64,000 bases of DNA from Parvivirga hydrogeniphila (GTDB taxonomy: Bacteria > Actinomycetota > Coriobacteriia > Anaerosomatales > Anaerosomataceae): assembly GCF_023371205.1 (NCBI RefSeq), contig NZ_JAMCCO010000001.1:306662-370661 (forward strand), read 5' to 3'. Both the position numbers and the translations under genes were made by a program. Below are positions 44,214-52,235 of the stretch, one piece after another (position 1 is the stretch's first letter; each line of letters opens with the position of its first letter). A model generated the notes under the pieces. The model did no database searches. It was not told the origin of the DNA and saw nothing but the letters and a program-made list of their open reading frames with translations.

Positions 44214-44278
44214 GGAACGGTGCTGGTACACTATCCCGCAACCTCACGTCAGCCAGATGCGCGTCCCGGGAGAGTGTG

Positions 44279-45538
44279 ATGGCTCTCGTCGTCCAGAAGT
44301 ATGGAGGCACGTCAGTCGGCACGCCGGAGCGGATCCGCGCGGTGGCACGCAGGATCATCGCGCGCAAGCGCGCCGGCGACGATGTCGTGGCGGTCGTCTC
44401 TGCCATGGGGCACGTCACCGACGAGCTCGTCGAGCTCGCGCACAGCGTGTCGGCAGAGCCGCCTGAGCGCGAGATGGACATGCTGCTCGCAACCGGCGAG
44501 CAGGTGTCGATCGCGCTGCTGGCCATGGCGATCCACGCCGAGGGGCACGATGCGGTGTCGTTCACGGGGCAGCAGGTCGGCATCGTCACCGACCCGGTGC
44601 ACGGGAAGGCCAAGATCCAGAAGGTGCAGGCCGACCGCGTTCGCGAGGCGCTTGCCGACGGCAAGATCGTCATCGTCGCCGGCTTCCAGGGAGTGACCGA
44701 AGACGGGCAGATCACGACGCTGGGGCGCGGGGGTTCCGATACGACGGCAGTGGCCGTCGCCGCAGGCATCGGGGCGGACGTGTGCGAGATCTACACCGAC
44801 GTGGACGGCGTGTTCACCGCGGATCCCCGCATCGTTCCTGAGGCCCGCAAGATCGACGTCATCTCCTACGAAGAGATGCTGGAGCTTGCGGCGAGCGGTG
44901 CGGGCGTCCTGCAGCTGCGCAGCGTCGAGTTCGCGCGCAACCACGGAGTCGTCATACACTGCCGGTCGTCGTTCAATGACGAGCCGGGCACCATCGTCAA
45001 GGAGGCCGATGAGACCATGGAGCAAGCCATCATCTCGGGCGTGGCGCACGACACCTCTGAGGCGAAGGTCACCATCCGCGATGTCCCGGACCGCCCTGGC
45101 GTTGCCGCAACCGTGTTCACCAAGATGGCCGAAGCGCACGTCAATGTCGACATGATCATCCAGAACGTCTCCGAGCAGGGGCTCACCGACATCTCATTCA
45201 CCGTGCCGAAGACGGACCTGGTCCGTGCGCGGCGGGCCGTCGGAGAGGTCGTGCAGGAGCTCGGCGCCCGCACGTGGGCTCTCGACGAGTCGATCGCGAA
45301 GGTGTCGCTGGTGGGCGCCGGCATGAAGACGCATCCTGGCGTCGCAGCGAAGATGTTCAGCGTGCTCGCCGATGCCGGCGTGAACATCGACATGATCTCG
45401 ACCTCGTCGATCCGCATCTCCTGCGTCATCGAGGCGGACAAGGTCGAGCAGGCGGTCCGGGCTCTGCACAGCGGGTTCGGTCTGGACGCCGAGATGATCA
45501 CTACGGAAGTGTCGCCCGGTTGCGGTGAGGAGTCATAA
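44279..45538 (+). CDS. lysC: Aspartokinase
   Basis: A 419-residue kinase phosphorylating aspartate, the first step of lysine, threonine and methionine synthesis. The N-terminal motif VQKYGGTSVG, the EMDMLLATGEQVSIALLA block, GRGGSDTTAVAVAAG and TDVDGVFTADPR are typical, and two ACT domains form the C-terminal regulatory half (DVPDRPGVAATVF and GAGMKTHPGVAAKMFSVLA), the form usually inhibited by lysine and/or threonine. GGGAGAG precedes ATG 44279. The following gene, asd, starts two bases later. Confidence 0.96.
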   Translation: MALVVQKYGGTSVGTPERIRAVARRIIARKRAGDDVVAVVSAMGHVTDELVELAHSVSAEPPEREMDMLLATGEQVSIALLAMAIHAEGHDAVSFTGQQVGIVTDPVHGKAKIQKVQADRVREALADGKIVIVAGFQGVTEDGQITTLGRGGSDTTAVAVAAGIGADVCEIYTDVDGVFTADPRIVPEARKIDVISYEEMLELAASGAGVLQLRSVEFARNHGVVIHCRSSFNDEPGTIVKEADETMEQAIISGVAHDTSEAKVTIRDVPDRPGVAATVFTKMAEAHVNVDMIIQNVSEQGLTDISFTVPKTDLVRARRAVGEVVQELGARTWALDESIAKVSLVGAGMKTHPGVAAKMFSVLADAGVNIDMISTSSIRISCVIEADKVEQAVRALHSGFGLDAEMITTEVSPGCGEES

Positions 45539-45539
45539 G

Positions 45540-46565
45540 GTGGCGTGGACGAAGCAGATGCCCGCACGTCCGGTTGTCGCGGTCGCCGGAGCGACGGGCG
45601 CCGTGGGAGCCGAGATGCTCGCGGTGCTCGAGCAGCGCGATTTCCCGCTCTCCGGCATCCGCGCCCTCGCATCGGCGCGTTCGGCAGGCAAGCGCGTACG
45701 GTTCAGAGGAGAGGACGTCGTCGTCGAGGAGCTCACCGAAGGTTCCTTCGACGGGGTGGACATCGCGCTGTTCTCGGCAGGCGCCTCGGTGAGCAAGCAG
45801 TATCGTGAGGCAGTCACCTCCGCTGGCGCGGTGATGATCGACAACTCGTCCGCGTTCCGGATGGAGCCAGGCGTCCCGCTCGTGGTCCCTGAGGTGAACC
45901 CGGACGATGCGCTTTCGCACCAGGGCGTGATCGCGAACCCGAACTGCTCGACGATCCAGATGGTGGTGGCGCTCGCGCCGCTCGAGCGGCTTGCGCCGAT
46001 CAAGAGGGTCGTGGTCGCGACGTACCAGGCCGCAAGCGGTGCCGGCCAGGCGGCGATGGACGAGCTGTATGCGCAGACAGCGGACTTCCTCGCAGGCAGG
46101 CCGGTCGAGCCCAAGCGGTTCGCTCACCGCATCGCTTTCAACTGCATCCCGCACATCGACGTCTTCTTGGAGGACGGCTCCACGAAAGAGGAGTGGAAGA
46201 TGGTCGTGGAGACGCAGAAGATCATGCACCGGCCCGACCTCGTTGTCGCGGCGACGTGCGTGCGAGTCCCTGTGCTGCGGTGCCACTCCGAGGCCGTCGC
46301 TGTCGAGTTCGGCGCCCCGGTCGACCTCGCTGACGTGCGTGAAGCGCTCGCAGGAGCGCCGGGCGTGACGGTCCTCGACGAGGTCGCCAAGAACCGCTAT
46401 CCCATGCCAGCGATGCTCGAAGGGACCGATGACGTCTACGTCGGCCGCATCCGGCGCGATCCGAGCGTCGAAAGCGGCATTCAGATGTGGGTGGTGGCGG
46501 ACCAGCTGCGCAAGGGCGCCGCGCTGAACGCGGTGCAGATAGCCGAGATGCTCCTTCCGCGCTAG
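45540..46565 (+). CDS. asd: Aspartate-semialdehyde dehydrogenase
   Basis: A 341-residue dehydrogenase reducing aspartyl phosphate with NADPH. GATGAVG (residues 17-23) is the nucleotide motif, NPNCSTIQMV carries the catalytic Cys (near 135), and HRIAFNCIPHID is a family block, with SGAGQAAMDELY (substrate Arg/Gln region). GTG 45540 follows GAGGAG at 7-8 nt, within the end of lysC. It forms the lysC-asd operon. Confidence 0.96.
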   Translation: MAWTKQMPARPVVAVAGATGAVGAEMLAVLEQRDFPLSGIRALASARSAGKRVRFRGEDVVVEELTEGSFDGVDIALFSAGASVSKQYREAVTSAGAVMIDNSSAFRMEPGVPLVVPEVNPDDALSHQGVIANPNCSTIQMVVALAPLERLAPIKRVVVATYQAASGAGQAAMDELYAQTADFLAGRPVEPKRFAHRIAFNCIPHIDVFLEDGSTKEEWKMVVETQKIMHRPDLVVAATCVRVPVLRCHSEAVAVEFGAPVDLADVREALAGAPGVTVLDEVAKNRYPMPAMLEGTDDVYVGRIRRDPSVESGIQMWVVADQLRKGAALNAVQIAEMLLPR

Positions 46566-47279: not shown

Positions 47280-48761
47280 ATGCGCCTGAAGTCCATACGC
47301 GCGAGAGTCCTGTACCTTGCTGCCGTCTTCGCGGCGCTTCTCGTCGGAAGCGTCACGCTCGCGACGTACTTCGTCGTGTCACAGAGCATGGACGCATCGG
47401 CCCGGGAGACGTGCTCGCACATCGCGTCGTTCGCAGCGGCAGCGGCGCAGCGGCTGGAGGGCTCCTCCGATGCAGGAGCCGGTGCCGCTGGCACGGAGGC
47501 CGGAGCGCTGCAGCGAGCGCTTGAGCCGGTGACCGCGCTCTTCGACGGGACCCAGGTGACGCTGTGGGCCGCGCCGGGTGCAGGCGGAGGCTTCCGGGAG
47601 GCGTGGTCGAACGCCCCGGGCGCGCGTTTGCGCTCACCGGCGGACGCAGACCGTGCGCTTGCAAGCGGCAAGACGGTCCAGGTCAAGGTCGGAGGTGGTC
47701 GGTTCCTGGCAGGATTCTTGAGCCGGGCCGATCTCGGTCTTTGGATCGCGTACGTGCCAGTGCAAGCATCCGACGGCGGCAGAGCGATCATCGAGATCGT
47801 GCACGACCCCGTGTGCCAGGAGAGCGTGCTTGACGGTGCCCGCGCCCCGATGGTGGCCGTCGGGCTCCTGGCGACCGCGATCGCTATCCTGATGATGCAA
47901 ATCGTGATGGGCTGGGTGCTCTCGCTCGTCGACCAGGTCCGTCGCGCCGCGGACTCGATCGACGCCGGCCAGCTCGACGTCCGGCTTCCAGAGGAAGGCG
48001 AGCATGAGATCGCCGAGCTCGCGAAGTCGCTCAATGCGCTCATCGATCGCCTGAGGAAGCGGGCGGAGGCGCAGACGCGGTTCGTGGCGGATGCGTCGCA
48101 CGAACTGGCGACGCCGGTCGCGGGCATCAGGGGCTACGTGAACATCCTGCGCGCGTGGGGAGCGGAGGATCCTGAGATGCGCGACGAGGCGATCGCGGCG
48201 ATCGACCGCGAATCGCGGCGCATGGCGAAACTGTGCTCGGACCTCCTGTCGATGATCAGGAGCGAGGAGATCTTGGAGTTCAAGCACGTCCGCTACGACA
48301 TCAACGCCGTGGCCCGCGAGGTGCTTGCGAACGCAGCCACACGCTACATCGACAAGCATCTCGAGTTCTTGGGACCAGAAGAGGGGCCTCTCGCGCTGTG
48401 GGGCGACCCAGACCGCATCGAGGAGGCGCTCGGCATCCTGGTGGACAACGCGTGCAAGTACACGCCGGCCGGCGGCCGCGTACAGGTCAGCACGCGCCGC
48501 CACAAGGACCGCATCATCGTCGAGGTGAGCGACACCGGCATCGGGATACCTGAAGAGGACCTCCCGAACATCTTCGAGCGCTTCTACCGGAGCGACGCCT
48601 CCCGCTCGAAGGAGACGGGAGGGTTCGGTCTCGGGCTTTCCATCGCGAAGCACATCGTCGACGCGAGCGGCGGCATGATCTGGGCCCGCAGCAAGCTCGG
48701 GTCGGGCACGACGTTCATCATCTCGCTTCCGCGCAACAAGCAGAAAGGCGCCAACGAATGA
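47280..48761 (+). CDS. Sensor histidine kinase partner of the OmpR-type regulator
   Basis: A 493-residue kinase. TM1 (about 10-34), an extracytoplasmic sensor of about 160 residues (with acidic repeats), TM2 (about 198-222), HAMP (LVDQVRRAADSIDAGQLDVRLP), HisKA with SHELATPVAG (His274), and HATPase with NACKYT (N), SDTGIGIP (G1), FERFYRSDAS (F) and GFGLGLSI (G2). It starts at the base following the regulator stop and its last 4 bp overlap queT, so all three share a transcript. Confidence 0.95.
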   Translation: MRLKSIRARVLYLAAVFAALLVGSVTLATYFVVSQSMDASARETCSHIASFAAAAAQRLEGSSDAGAGAAGTEAGALQRALEPVTALFDGTQVTLWAAPGAGGGFREAWSNAPGARLRSPADADRALASGKTVQVKVGGGRFLAGFLSRADLGLWIAYVPVQASDGGRAIIEIVHDPVCQESVLDGARAPMVAVGLLATAIAILMMQIVMGWVLSLVDQVRRAADSIDAGQLDVRLPEEGEHEIAELAKSLNALIDRLRKRAEAQTRFVADASHELATPVAGIRGYVNILRAWGAEDPEMRDEAIAAIDRESRRMAKLCSDLLSMIRSEEILEFKHVRYDINAVAREVLANAATRYIDKHLEFLGPEEGPLALWGDPDRIEEALGILVDNACKYTPAGGRVQVSTRRHKDRIIVEVSDTGIGIPEEDLPNIFERFYRSDASRSKETGGFGLGLSIAKHIVDASGGMIWARSKLGSGTTFIISLPRNKQKGANE

Positions 48762-49372
48762 CAGGGTCTTCCAAGGAACAGCGACAGGAGTCGCCGGGAA
48801 GCGGTGTCGGCTCGCCGACGCATCGGCGTTCGCGCTACATCGCGCAGGCCGGACTGATTGCTGCGCTCTACGCGGCGGCCACGCTGCCGATGATCCAGAA
48901 CCCGCTCGCCTACGGACCCGTGCAGGTACGGTTGTCCGAGGCGCTCACGGTGCTCGCGCTGTTCACGCCCGCGGCCGTTCCCGGGCTCGCCATCGGGTGC
49001 GCCGTCGCCAACGGCGCGATGGTGGCCCAGTTCGGGCCGACCGCTCTGCTGGACGTGGTCTTCGGCTCGCTCGCCACCTTGCTCGGCGCCGCGTGGACGT
49101 ACCGTCTCCGCAGACGGCCCGCCGTAGCGCTCCTCGGTCCCGTCGTCGCCAATGCAGTCATCGTGGCGGCGTACCTCCCCATCGTCTTGGCGGCAACGGG
49201 GCTGTACGACACCCCGTTGCTCGGAGTGCACGTGAGCGACTCGTGGCTGTGGATGTACCTGTTCGGCGTCGTCACGATCGCGGCCGGCGAGTTCGTCGCC
49301 GTCTATCTCGTGGGCGGCCTGCTCGCCGTGGCGTTGCGGCTCTCAGGGGCTGCGCGTATCGTCGGCGAGTAG
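48758..49372 (+). CDS. QueT-like S-component transporter (queuosine precursor)
   Basis: A 204-residue ECF S-component-like membrane protein. The N-terminal segment IAQAGLIAALYAAATLP and the QueT family block LAYGPVQVRLSEALTVLALFTPAAVPGLAIGC are visible, with 5-6 hydrophobic segments. QueT takes up a precursor of queuosine (preQ0/preQ1). No preQ1 riboswitch can be present immediately upstream since the start lies within the kinase gene. ATG 48758 overlaps by 4 bp. Confidence 0.82.
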   Translation: MTGSSKEQRQESPGSGVGSPTHRRSRYIAQAGLIAALYAAATLPMIQNPLAYGPVQVRLSEALTVLALFTPAAVPGLAIGCAVANGAMVAQFGPTALLDVVFGSLATLLGAAWTYRLRRRPAVALLGPVVANAVIVAAYLPIVLAATGLYDTPLLGVHVSDSWLWMYLFGVVTIAAGEFVAVYLVGGLLAVALRLSGAARIVGE

Positions 49373-49397
49373 GGGCGGACGGCAAGGGGGGCGTTCG

Positions 49398-51215
49398 GTG
49401 GGCGAGGAGAGCACAGCAGGACGGACAGGGCAACGCGCGGAGGCGCGCGGCCCGCTCATCTTCCATGAGAAGTCGTCGTGCACCGAGTGCTGGGGGTGCG
49501 TCAGAGTCTGTCCGGTGAAGGCGATCCGTGTCCTCGATGGGCGTTCGGAGGTCATCCAGGAGAAGTGCATCGCCTGCGGGCTGTGCGTCGGCGAGTGCGG
49601 CGCTAAGGCGCACCAGGTCCGTGACGACACGCCTGGCGTGTGGGAGCTCCTGCGCTCCCGCAGAACGGTGGTCGCGCTGCTCGCATCCGAGTTCATCGCA
49701 GCGCTGCATCCGATGACGCCGCTTGCGGTAGAGCGCGCGCTCGCTGGCCTCGGATTCGCCTCGGTCGAGACGACCGCGCTCGGCGAGGAGATCGTCGCTC
49801 TCGAGTACGAGCGCGCGGCCGCACGCGAGGCGTCGCTGTTCACCATCCGGTCGACGTGTCCTGTGGTCGTCGACTTCGTCCGCAAGTACCATCCGGCCCT
49901 GGCTCCTGCGCTTGCCCCGATCGTGCCGCCGTACGTCGCGCAGGCGAGGCTCATCAGGTCGATGTACGGCACAGACGTGGCGATCGTGTACGTGGGCCCC
50001 TGCTACGCTCGCAAGGACGAGGCATTCGATCCGGAGCTTGGCGGACCGGTGGATGCGGCGATCGACTTCTTGGAGCTCAAGGAGATGATCGCGTCCAAGG
50101 AGCGCACGGGCGGCCACCGGGCGGTCCACGCGAACGCGCCTGCGCGGCCGAGGATCCTCAAGCAGGTCTCGCTCACCGACGGGTTCCCCCGCGAGGTGCT
50201 CGCGAGCCGCTCGCCTACCGACGGGCTGGTCCACGTGGTCCGCGGGATCCCCGACCTGGATCGGTTGCTGAAGGCCATCGAGGCCGGCGAGACGGCGCCT
50301 GCGGTGATCGACGCGCTCAACTGCGAGGGCTGCATCGATGGCCCGGCGGTCAATCCGGGCATGTCGTTGTACGCGAAACGCAACGTGGACCGGGCGTCGC
50401 GTTCCGCCGCGGGCATCGCGGCGGTGAGCACGCGCACGATCGTCGAGGTGCTTCCGAGCATCGATCTTGTGCGGTCGTTCCGTCCGGCTCCGGTGCGCGT
50501 GCCGCGACCGAGCGAGGAGGTCATCGACGCGCTCCTTGCGGAGGGCGGCTTCTTGTCGAGGGCCGAGGTCCTTGACTGTGGGGCGTGCGGACACTCGACG
50601 TGCGTCGAGCACGCCGAGGCGATCTTCCGGGGCGAATCCACCTGGGAGATGTGCTTCCCGCTCCAGCGACGCCGCTTGCAGGAGGCGAGCACCGCGCTGC
50701 AAGCGCTCGTCACGATCGACGAGCTCACGGGGGTCTGGAACGGCCGGGCCTTGGACGAACGGCTCGAGCTGGAACTGGCGCGCTTCGCGCGCTATGGGAC
50801 CCCGCTCTCGCTCGTCGTGCTCGACGTCGACGGCTTCGGAGCCGTGAACGACCTCGTGGGAGAGGCGGGAGCGGACGACGTGCTCAAGCGCATCGCAGAA
50901 GCGCTCGCTTCCAGCGTTCGCACCACGGACATGGTGGCCCGCGTCGGCGGCGATCAGTTCGCGGTCCTGCTGCCGGGCGTTGGGAAGACCGCGGCGTTCG
51001 CGGTGGCCGAGAAGCTGCGATCGCTCGTGCGCGAGCTCAGCATCCAGGTCGGCGGCGGGTATACAGGTGATGTGCGGGTCACGCTCTCTGCGGGAGTCGC
51101 TTCGGCGCATACGGGCACGCTCGAAGGCGACGACCTTGTCGAAGCGGCGGAATCGGCGCTCGCCGAGGCCGCCAGACAGGGCCCCGATCAGGTCAGGATA
51201 GCGGCGTCAGGATAG
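49398..51215 (+). CDS. Ferredoxin/[FeFe]-hydrogenase-like/FeS/GGDEF fusion sensor
   Basis: A 605-residue soluble fusion. Two [4Fe-4S] motifs (C28, C31, C34, C38 and C57, C60, C63, C67), then a hydrogenase large-subunit-like domain carrying the H-cluster Cys in all three signature positions: STCP (Cys154), GPCYARKDE (Cys202) and LNCEGC (Cys309, Cys312). Next is a CxxCGxxxC...C FeS motif (Cys394, 397, 402, 419), then a GGDEF domain (about 440-600) whose active-site reads GGDQF (517-521), with an intact RxxD inhibitory site (508-511). It lacks catalytic-type L1/L3 extras and is probably a sensory hydrogenase. The cyclase may be inactive because the fourth residue is Gln. No HydEFG maturases are in the window. 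Confidence 0.85.
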   Translation: MGEESTAGRTGQRAEARGPLIFHEKSSCTECWGCVRVCPVKAIRVLDGRSEVIQEKCIACGLCVGECGAKAHQVRDDTPGVWELLRSRRTVVALLASEFIAALHPMTPLAVERALAGLGFASVETTALGEEIVALEYERAAAREASLFTIRSTCPVVVDFVRKYHPALAPALAPIVPPYVAQARLIRSMYGTDVAIVYVGPCYARKDEAFDPELGGPVDAAIDFLELKEMIASKERTGGHRAVHANAPARPRILKQVSLTDGFPREVLASRSPTDGLVHVVRGIPDLDRLLKAIEAGETAPAVIDALNCEGCIDGPAVNPGMSLYAKRNVDRASRSAAGIAAVSTRTIVEVLPSIDLVRSFRPAPVRVPRPSEEVIDALLAEGGFLSRAEVLDCGACGHSTCVEHAEAIFRGESTWEMCFPLQRRRLQEASTALQALVTIDELTGVWNGRALDERLELELARFARYGTPLSLVVLDVDGFGAVNDLVGEAGADDVLKRIAEALASSVRTTDMVARVGGDQFAVLLPGVGKTAAFAVAEKLRSLVRELSIQVGGGYTGDVRVTLSAGVASAHTGTLEGDDLVEAAESALAEAARQGPDQVRIAASG

Positions 51216-51224
51216 GAGGGCTGC

Positions 51225-52235
51225 ATGCGGCAGGCCGACCTCTGGGAGAGCATCGAGGGCGGCGCTGTGCACTGCCTGCTCTGTCCGCACTCGTGTCGCA
51301 TCCCTGAGGGCTCGTCCGGTATCTGCGGCGCGCGCCGCAACGTCGGCGGGCGGCTTTTCGCAGCGACGTACGGCGAGGTCTCGTCGCTCGCCGTCGACCC
51401 GATCGAGAAGAAGCCGGTGTTCCACTACAGGCCGGGGACCCGAGCGCTCTCGCTCGGCAGCGTCGGGTGCAGCATGCGCTGTCTGCACTGCCAGAACTGG
51501 AGCATCAGCAGGGCGCGCCTTGAAGACGGCGGGGTGCGACGCCTTACGCCCGAGGAGGTCGTGACCATCGCGCGAGCCGAATCGTGCGAAGGGGTGGCTT
51601 TCACGTACAACGAGCCGGTCATCTGGGCGGAGTTCGTGAAGGACACCGCCGTACTGGCGCGCGAAGCCGGGCTGTACACCGTCATGGTGACCAATGGGTA
51701 CGTCACCGAGGCCGGGCTCGACTACCTCGGCCCCGTGATCGACGTCTGGCGCGTGGACGTCAAAGCGTTCGACGACGCGACCTATCGGCGGCTGTGCAAG
51801 GTTCGCTCGATGCAGCCGGTGCTCGATGCCGCCGTGAGGGCCAAGGAGCGGTGGGGGATGCACGTGGAAGCAGTCACCAACGTCATCCCTTCGATCAACG
51901 ACTCCGACGCGACGGCCCGCGGCATCGCTCGTTGGATACATGACGCGCTCGGCCCGAAGACGCCGTGGCACGTGACGAGGTTCTTCCCATACCTGGAGCT
52001 CTCGCACCTTCCCCCGACGCCCCTCGAGACGCTGCGACGTTTCCGCGAGATCGGCCTCGAAGAAGGGCTCGCGTTCGTGTACCTCGGGAACGTGGCCGAG
52101 CCTGGTGGCGAGGACACCGTGTGTCCACGCTGCGGTACTATCGCCATCGCGCGGGACGGCTACCGCATCGTGCAGCACCGGACGCGCGACGGCGCGTGCG
52201 CATCGTGCGGTGAGCCGCTCGGCCTGGTCGAGTGA
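51225..52235 (+). CDS. AmmeMemoRadiSam-type radical SAM enzyme (AmrS-like)
   Basis: A 336-residue radical SAM protein. The N-terminal zinc/Cys part (CLLCPHSCRIPEGSSGICGARR) is typical of AmrS, followed by the radical SAM motif CSMRCLHCQNW (C-x3-C-x2-C) and the VAFTYNEPVIWAEF block. A C-terminal zinc ribbon CPRCG...CASCG ends it. AmrS usually lies near Memo and AMMECR1, which are not in this window. It sits 9 bp after the hydrogenase-like fusion and 14 bp before the UGA-containing DsbA-like gene. Function of the family is unknown. Confidence 0.88.
   Translation: MRQADLWESIEGGAVHCLLCPHSCRIPEGSSGICGARRNVGGRLFAATYGEVSSLAVDPIEKKPVFHYRPGTRALSLGSVGCSMRCLHCQNWSISRARLEDGGVRRLTPEEVVTIARAESCEGVAFTYNEPVIWAEFVKDTAVLAREAGLYTVMVTNGYVTEAGLDYLGPVIDVWRVDVKAFDDATYRRLCKVRSMQPVLDAAVRAKERWGMHVEAVTNVIPSINDSDATARGIARWIHDALGPKTPWHVTRFFPYLELSHLPPTPLETLRRFREIGLEEGLAFVYLGNVAEPGGEDTVCPRCGTIAIARDGYRIVQHRTRDGACASCGEPLGLVE

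Follow-up and report, generated by a model that had tools for sequence, protein, structure and literature searches.

The locus and its gene

The window, that is the whole stretch of 64,000 nucleotides of Parvivirga hydrogeniphila DNA that was analyzed, contains on its forward strand an open reading frame at 49398..51215 that starts with GTG, has no internal stop and encodes a protein of 605 amino acids; a ribosome-site-like sequence, AAGGGGGG, lies six bases 5' of the start. The gene is supported by Pfam matches, predicted fold and orthologues. A Pfam scan identified a Fer4_10 match (residues 22-67, 4e-8), an [FeFe]-hydrogenase-like H-domain (Fe_hyd_lg_C, PF02906, residues 90-316, 5e-30, full profile covered; 49665..50345, +), an FeS domain (PF04060, residues 392-421, 3e-7; 50571..50660, +) and a GGDEF domain (PF00990, residues 439-596, 1e-34; 50712..51185, +), and no PAS domain in the 605 residues. 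This confirms the combination of ferredoxin, H-cluster, FeS and GGDEF domains in one chain that a preliminary description of the sequence had proposed. An overlapping minus-strand frame (49272-51110, 612 aa) was rejected as a product of the high GC content, as all conserved domains lie on the plus strand.

The protein has 16 conserved cysteines. Eight of them, rather than the ten counted in the preliminary description, form the two N-terminal [4Fe-4S] ferredoxin motifs (C28,31,34,38 and C57,60,63,67; 49461..49607, +), four belong to the H-domain (C154, C202, C309, C312) and four to the C-terminal Fe-S domain, where they are arranged as Cx2Cx4Cx16C (C394,397,402,419). In an AlphaFold2 model (26 orthologues; mean pLDDT 85.6, pTM 0.70) a linker helix, residues 420-437 (50655..50708, +), leads from this domain directly to GGDEF. 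Structural modeling, which had been suggested as a check, supports both folds: the best-matching hydrogenases for residues 13-364 are CbA5H with Z 34.3 and CpI with Z 32.9, while residues 435-603 resemble GGDEF structures (3ign, Z 27.7, rmsd 1.7).

Upstream, with 25 nt from stop to start, lies a gene for a QueT-family transporter (PF06177; 48758..49372, +), which is found 5' of the sensor gene in 61/62 loci and is itself overlapped by 4 nt by a HAMP histidine kinase gene (47280..48761, +; family search and synteny). Aspartokinase and Asd genes (44276..46565, +; named from sequence) are further members of this conserved neighborhood. Downstream, after a gap of 9 nt, follows the radical SAM gene of the AmmeMemoRadiSam system (AmrS; TIGR04337, 318 bits over cut-off; 51225..52235, +), present 3' of the sensor gene in 58 of the 62 loci.

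Of the 69 genomes searched from the order Anaerosomatales, 63 carry an orthologue, as one near full-length match in 60 and in pieces or cut in three (G047, G083, G119). In G047 it is split over several frames, reflecting either a pseudogene or assembly errors. Each of the 16 cysteines is kept in 60-62 of the 62 rows of the orthologue alignment (those of the ferredoxin motifs in 60-61 of 61), and dN/dS within the genus is 0.04-0.32 across all domains, and 0.13-0.32 in the GGDEF domain, indicating purifying selection. With orthologues spread across most of the order, near-invariant cysteines and purifying selection, a pseudogene or relic is ruled out.

Cubane and diiron-site residues of the H-domain

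All four cysteine ligands of the H-cluster cubane are present, as had been described, and they are invariant in the orthologues. C154 of the L1 motif (RSTCPV; 49857..49859, +) and C202 of L2 (GPCYARKDE; 50001..50003, +) are both kept in 62/62 sequences. The L3 pair C309-x-x-C312 (50322..50333, +; kept in 61/61 and 62/62) is one residue short of the CxxxC of hydrogenases, which reads CPGGC in 20 group A-type controls of the class Coriobacteriia. At the positions that surround the diiron site in hydrogenases, the alignment of orthologues shows a different picture: C299 corresponds to threonine (T153) in 60/62, M353 to serine, glycine or alanine, M497 to leucine, and K358 to arginine (R205) in 62/62, so that the L2 lysine beside the diiron site is missing. 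In hydrogenases, K358 keeps one of the cyanide ligands of the diiron subcluster in place. Its loss and the shortened spacing of C309/C312 had both been passed over in the preliminary description. For CpI, the exchange M497L has been reported to leave the enzyme without a properly integrated [2Fe] subcluster (PMC10055695). The CxxC spacing alone does not exclude an H-cluster, since relatives with the same spacing and histidine kinase or sigma-54 outputs keep K358 and occur mostly in genomes with HydG (see below). Most likely, however, the H-domain of the window protein has no H2-activating diiron site and has lost the ability to handle hydrogen.

Maturases and other hydrogenases in the host and its class

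The host genome (1,840,996 bases in 9 contigs) was searched for HydG and HydF, by a method in which only the top candidates from an initial screen are scored, and gave zero matches for HydG and nothing over the cut-off for HydF. The same holds for the order, with 0/69 Anaerosomatales genomes over the cut-off for either maturase, whereas HydF is present in other members of the class Coriobacteriia. The window gene is the only PF02906 gene of the host, so there is no companion group A [FeFe] hydrogenase either. The type strain, Es71-Z0120T, is a thermophilic Fe(III) reducer that oxidizes H2, and the hydrogenases described for it are all of the [NiFe] type (PMC9686372), and all three maturases, HydEFG, have been reported to be essential (PMC6212873). 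Both genomic checks that had been proposed for an H2 sensor, for maturases (here HydG and HydF) and for further [FeFe] hydrogenases, thus came out negative.

We nevertheless take the absence of maturases as supporting and not as decisive, since several Coriobacteriia keep a canonical HydA with neither HydF nor HydG detected, which weakens the argument that absence of HydEFG proves absence of an H-cluster; against an H-cluster the residue changes carry more weight. HydA-type PF02906 genes (∼290-305 bits) were seen in nine near-complete Coriobacteriia genomes, with canonical TSCCP, MPCxAKK and CPGGC motifs in those read (e.g., L019 of genome G142), and these genomes gave no HydF over the cut-off and no HydG match. 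This may reflect alternative maturation, missed maturases or a use unrelated to H2.

Relatives with a CxxC H-domain

Relatives were gathered by a phylum-wide search and a search of Bacillota, and a tree was calculated from 74 H-domains. The CxxC spacing has a single origin in 96% of the bootstrap trees, and the idea that it is unique to the family of the window was rejected, as it is shared with Bacillota sensors that have sigma-54 or kinase outputs. Within the CxxC group, 30 sequences from Actinomycetota form one clade (support 100/100), in which GGDEF motifs are readable and the domain is confirmed by Pfam in those scanned. The sister group, in Bacillota, has sigma-54 activator and histidine kinase outputs; it shares the Fer4/H-domain/FeS sensor with the window protein, but differs from it in its output, in keeping K358 and in occurring mostly in genomes with HydG. 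By our count, only 3/85 members of the GGDEF clade have lysine at the K358 position, whereas every non-GGDEF CxxC relative inspected has it. HydG was detected in none of the 86 genomes with a GGDEF-clade protein, 63 of them from the order and 23 from elsewhere (the latter searched with E up to 1e-60), and in 21/26 genomes with the non-GGDEF CxxC type. Loss of the lysine and absence of HydG therefore coincide in the GGDEF clade.

Asd-, TauE- and LytS/LytR-like genes, as read from the sequence, are also neighbors of the locus in further branches of Actinomycetota, which points to vertical inheritance. Judged from these comparisons, the set of two ferredoxin motifs, H-domain, FeS and GGDEF marks an ancient clade across several lineages of Actinomycetota. 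The preliminary description had singled out the exact domain set together with its degenerate active site: the set is indeed present, but it is common to this whole clade, and the degenerate GGDEF domain arose later and in the family of the window only. Among the Bacillota sigma-54 activators, two (L172 and L174) were assigned the Fer4/H-domain/FeS architecture by Pfam, with CxxC in L3 and K358 kept, and twelve more of the same sensor type were recognized by sequence. Fe_hyd_lg_C sensor domains in sigma-54 activators of Clostridiales have been listed before (PMC6615313).

The GGDEF output domain

The active-site loop reads G517-G-D-Q-F521 in the translated sequence (50946..50960, +), with the fourth-position glutamate (E4) replaced by glutamine, while the I-site R508-T-T-D511 (50919..50930, +) is intact and its RxxD invariant in 61/61 orthologues; both features had been noted correctly. 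In the Anaerosomataceae, the family of the window (n = 26), E4 is Q in 16, R in nine and T in one sequence, and glutamate in none; none of the 26 has the lysine of the FK motif, and 23/26 have also lost the first glycine of the signature, although the window copy keeps it. R508 and D511 are kept in all 26, and the metal-binding aspartates are likewise retained in the family. In orthologues outside the family, on the other hand, E4 is kept in 35/35 and GGDEF together with the FK lysine in 33/35. In a tree calculated from the sensor part without GGDEF, loss of the cyclase signature is one event at the base of the family (support 100/100). The window protein retains D476 and D519, which bind metal, and N484 and D493, which contact guanine.

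In VCA0965, changing E4 to A abolishes activity (PMC3974145). With E4 and the FK lysine both lost, the window protein is thus probably no cyclase. The conserved RxxD points to probable binding of c-di-GMP by its GGDEF domain, and GTP binding would also be possible; the earlier proposal of c-di-GMP binding and not synthesis fits this pattern. Independently of this, the active site has changed once more in two orthologues (L072, L074), which have AGGEF with loss of the metal-binding aspartate and no AmrS gene next door.

Comparison with known systems

The closest known counterparts are the putatively sensory group C/D [FeFe]-hydrogenases (TmHydS, M2f; TamHydS, M2e; HydDB C1-C3), which share with the window protein the two N-terminal [4Fe-4S] motifs, the H-domain and the same C-terminal Cx2Cx4Cx16C motif (PMC8163306), and in which C299, M353 and M497 are likewise replaced (PMC8163306, PMC13104023). 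The window protein differs from group C in having no PAS domain, and from group C/D in its directly fused GGDEF domain, in having lost K358, in its CxxC L3 and in its genome, which has no detected HydF or HydG and no companion [FeFe] hydrogenase gene (group C/D proteins often, but not always, have a group A hydrogenase nearby). HydDB of 2016 lists histidine kinase-, chemotaxis- and phosphatase-linked types in [FeFe] group C and no cyclase-linked one (PMC5037454). The cyclase-linked [FeFe] H-domain is absent from that classification, whose only cyclase-linked type is [NiFe] group 2c (PMC5037454), a putative H2 sensor that likewise joins a hydrogenase-type sensor to c-di-GMP, but belongs to an unrelated enzyme class. 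In the literature searched, which was mostly open access, we found no description of a GGDEF-linked [FeFe]-hydrogenase-like protein.

Two further comparisons concern what has been lost. The eukaryotic Nar1/CIAO3/IOP1 proteins have an H-domain that keeps the cubane site without [2Fe] in hosts that lack the maturases (for Nar1, PMC12621388). The resemblance does not go beyond the loss of the cofactor: they are proposed Fe-S trafficking factors with no signaling fusion, and the window protein is not a member of that family. PopA, CdgA and SgmT have degenerate GGDEF domains that act, or are proposed to act, via bound c-di-GMP (PMC3974145), but their sensor parts are unlike that of the window protein, whose c-di-GMP binding is a prediction.

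Proposed mechanism and alternatives

The computed domains, fold, conservation, purifying selection and single loss of the cyclase signature, together with the failure to detect HydG or HydF, are best accounted for, with a probability of about 0.6, by a HydEFG-independent sensor of Fe-S redox or cluster state that was ancestrally a diguanylate cyclase and in this organism is a probable receptor of c-di-GMP (or GTP). It would be a cytosolic Fe-S signaling protein that shares its scaffold with the putatively sensory [FeFe]-hydrogenases of group C/D, most likely with four [4Fe-4S] clusters: two of ferredoxin type, one in the old H-cluster position held by C154, C202, C309 and C312, and one at the C-terminal Cx2Cx4Cx16C motif. 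The input could be the redox state or integrity of the clusters, as altered by low-potential electron supply or by oxidant damage, and a change there would alter the C-terminal Fe-S domain and helix 420-437, and with them GGDEF. Most members of the clade have a canonical GGDEF site, which should then make c-di-GMP with feedback through the I-site, while in the Anaerosomataceae the domain is most likely a binding site for c-di-GMP (at RxxD) or for GTP that hands the combined signal on to a partner. Even TamHydS, the model protein, gives no proof of redox signaling via the C-terminal cluster, which in this protein is not reduced under H2 (PMC13104023). Of the two signals considered in the preliminary description, H2 or redox, the latter fits the evidence.

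More tentatively, and with somewhat less than even confidence, we suggest that the GGDEF-linked H-domains as a whole are an ancient, vertically inherited sensor class of Actinomycetota in which the cavity has been reused, without HydEFG, for a cofactor or ligand other than H2, making them a bacterial counterpart to Nar1, one family having turned from cyclase to receptor.

Among the alternatives, the one that survives best, unlikely as we consider it, is that the H-domain cavity holds another cofactor, for example a [2Fe-2S] cluster as proposed for yeast Nar1 or an open-site [4Fe-4S] cluster, and senses a small molecule such as CO, NO or sulfide. The residues that are invariant near the cluster motifs (R151, S152, R205, K206, D305, D314, G315, P316) exceed what four cysteine ligands need, and Nar1 sets a precedent (PMC12621388), but direct evidence for an extra cofactor is absent. 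It is rather improbable that the protein is a redox-controlled diguanylate cyclase that still makes c-di-GMP in spite of GGDQF: the retained metal and guanine contacts speak for it and some first-position variants are active (PMC3974145), yet the family has uniformly lost E4 and the FK lysine and mostly the first glycine (the window copy excepted), and it is E4 whose exchange inactivated VCA0965. A true H2 sensor, with an H-cluster built by a HydEFG-independent route and H2 binding that alters GGDEF output, appears very doubtful, and we rejected it as the most likely reading because of the undetected HydG and HydF and the lost diiron-site residues. The fold and the four cubane cysteines are kept, the host oxidizes H2 with [NiFe] hydrogenases and canonical HydA occurs without HydF and HydG elsewhere in the class; but K358, C299, M353 and M497 are all replaced, L3 is shortened, the M497L exchange in CpI and the reported need for all three maturases speak against a complete cofactor, and the lysine was lost in the very clade in which HydG went undetected. 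Equally hard to credit is a purely structural H-domain, or one that senses nothing and gives a ferredoxin partner, or else the neighboring radical SAM enzyme, a surface to dock on, as the adjoining AmrS gene might suggest, given that every cluster cysteine is conserved and the H-domain is fused to a signaling output throughout the clade.

If the protein is an Fe-S redox or cluster-state sensor, the clade keeps H-domains under strong selection as signaling input in cells that are probably unable to make the diiron cofactor, which suggests that the hydrogenase fold has been decoupled from hydrogen and an old H2-enzyme fold reused for redox sensing. Annotation based on domains would label such proteins H2 sensors. 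The locus is also a clear-cut case, in an organism available in culture, of a cyclase signature that was lost once while the I-site was retained, and through close orthologues both the signal of a group C/D-like sensor and the change from cyclase to receptor become testable.

Two features of the neighborhood may bear on the wider system. In many Anaerosomatales outside the family of the window (17 loci) an HD-GYP-like protein of ∼700 aa is encoded just upstream of QueT, a place where the Anaerosomataceae do not have it, and together with the hydrogenase-GGDEF gene it possibly forms a cyclase/phosphodiesterase pair. The AmmeMemoRadiSam radical SAM gene, in turn, is linked to the sensor gene across the order, and this link may be a clue to the role of that system.
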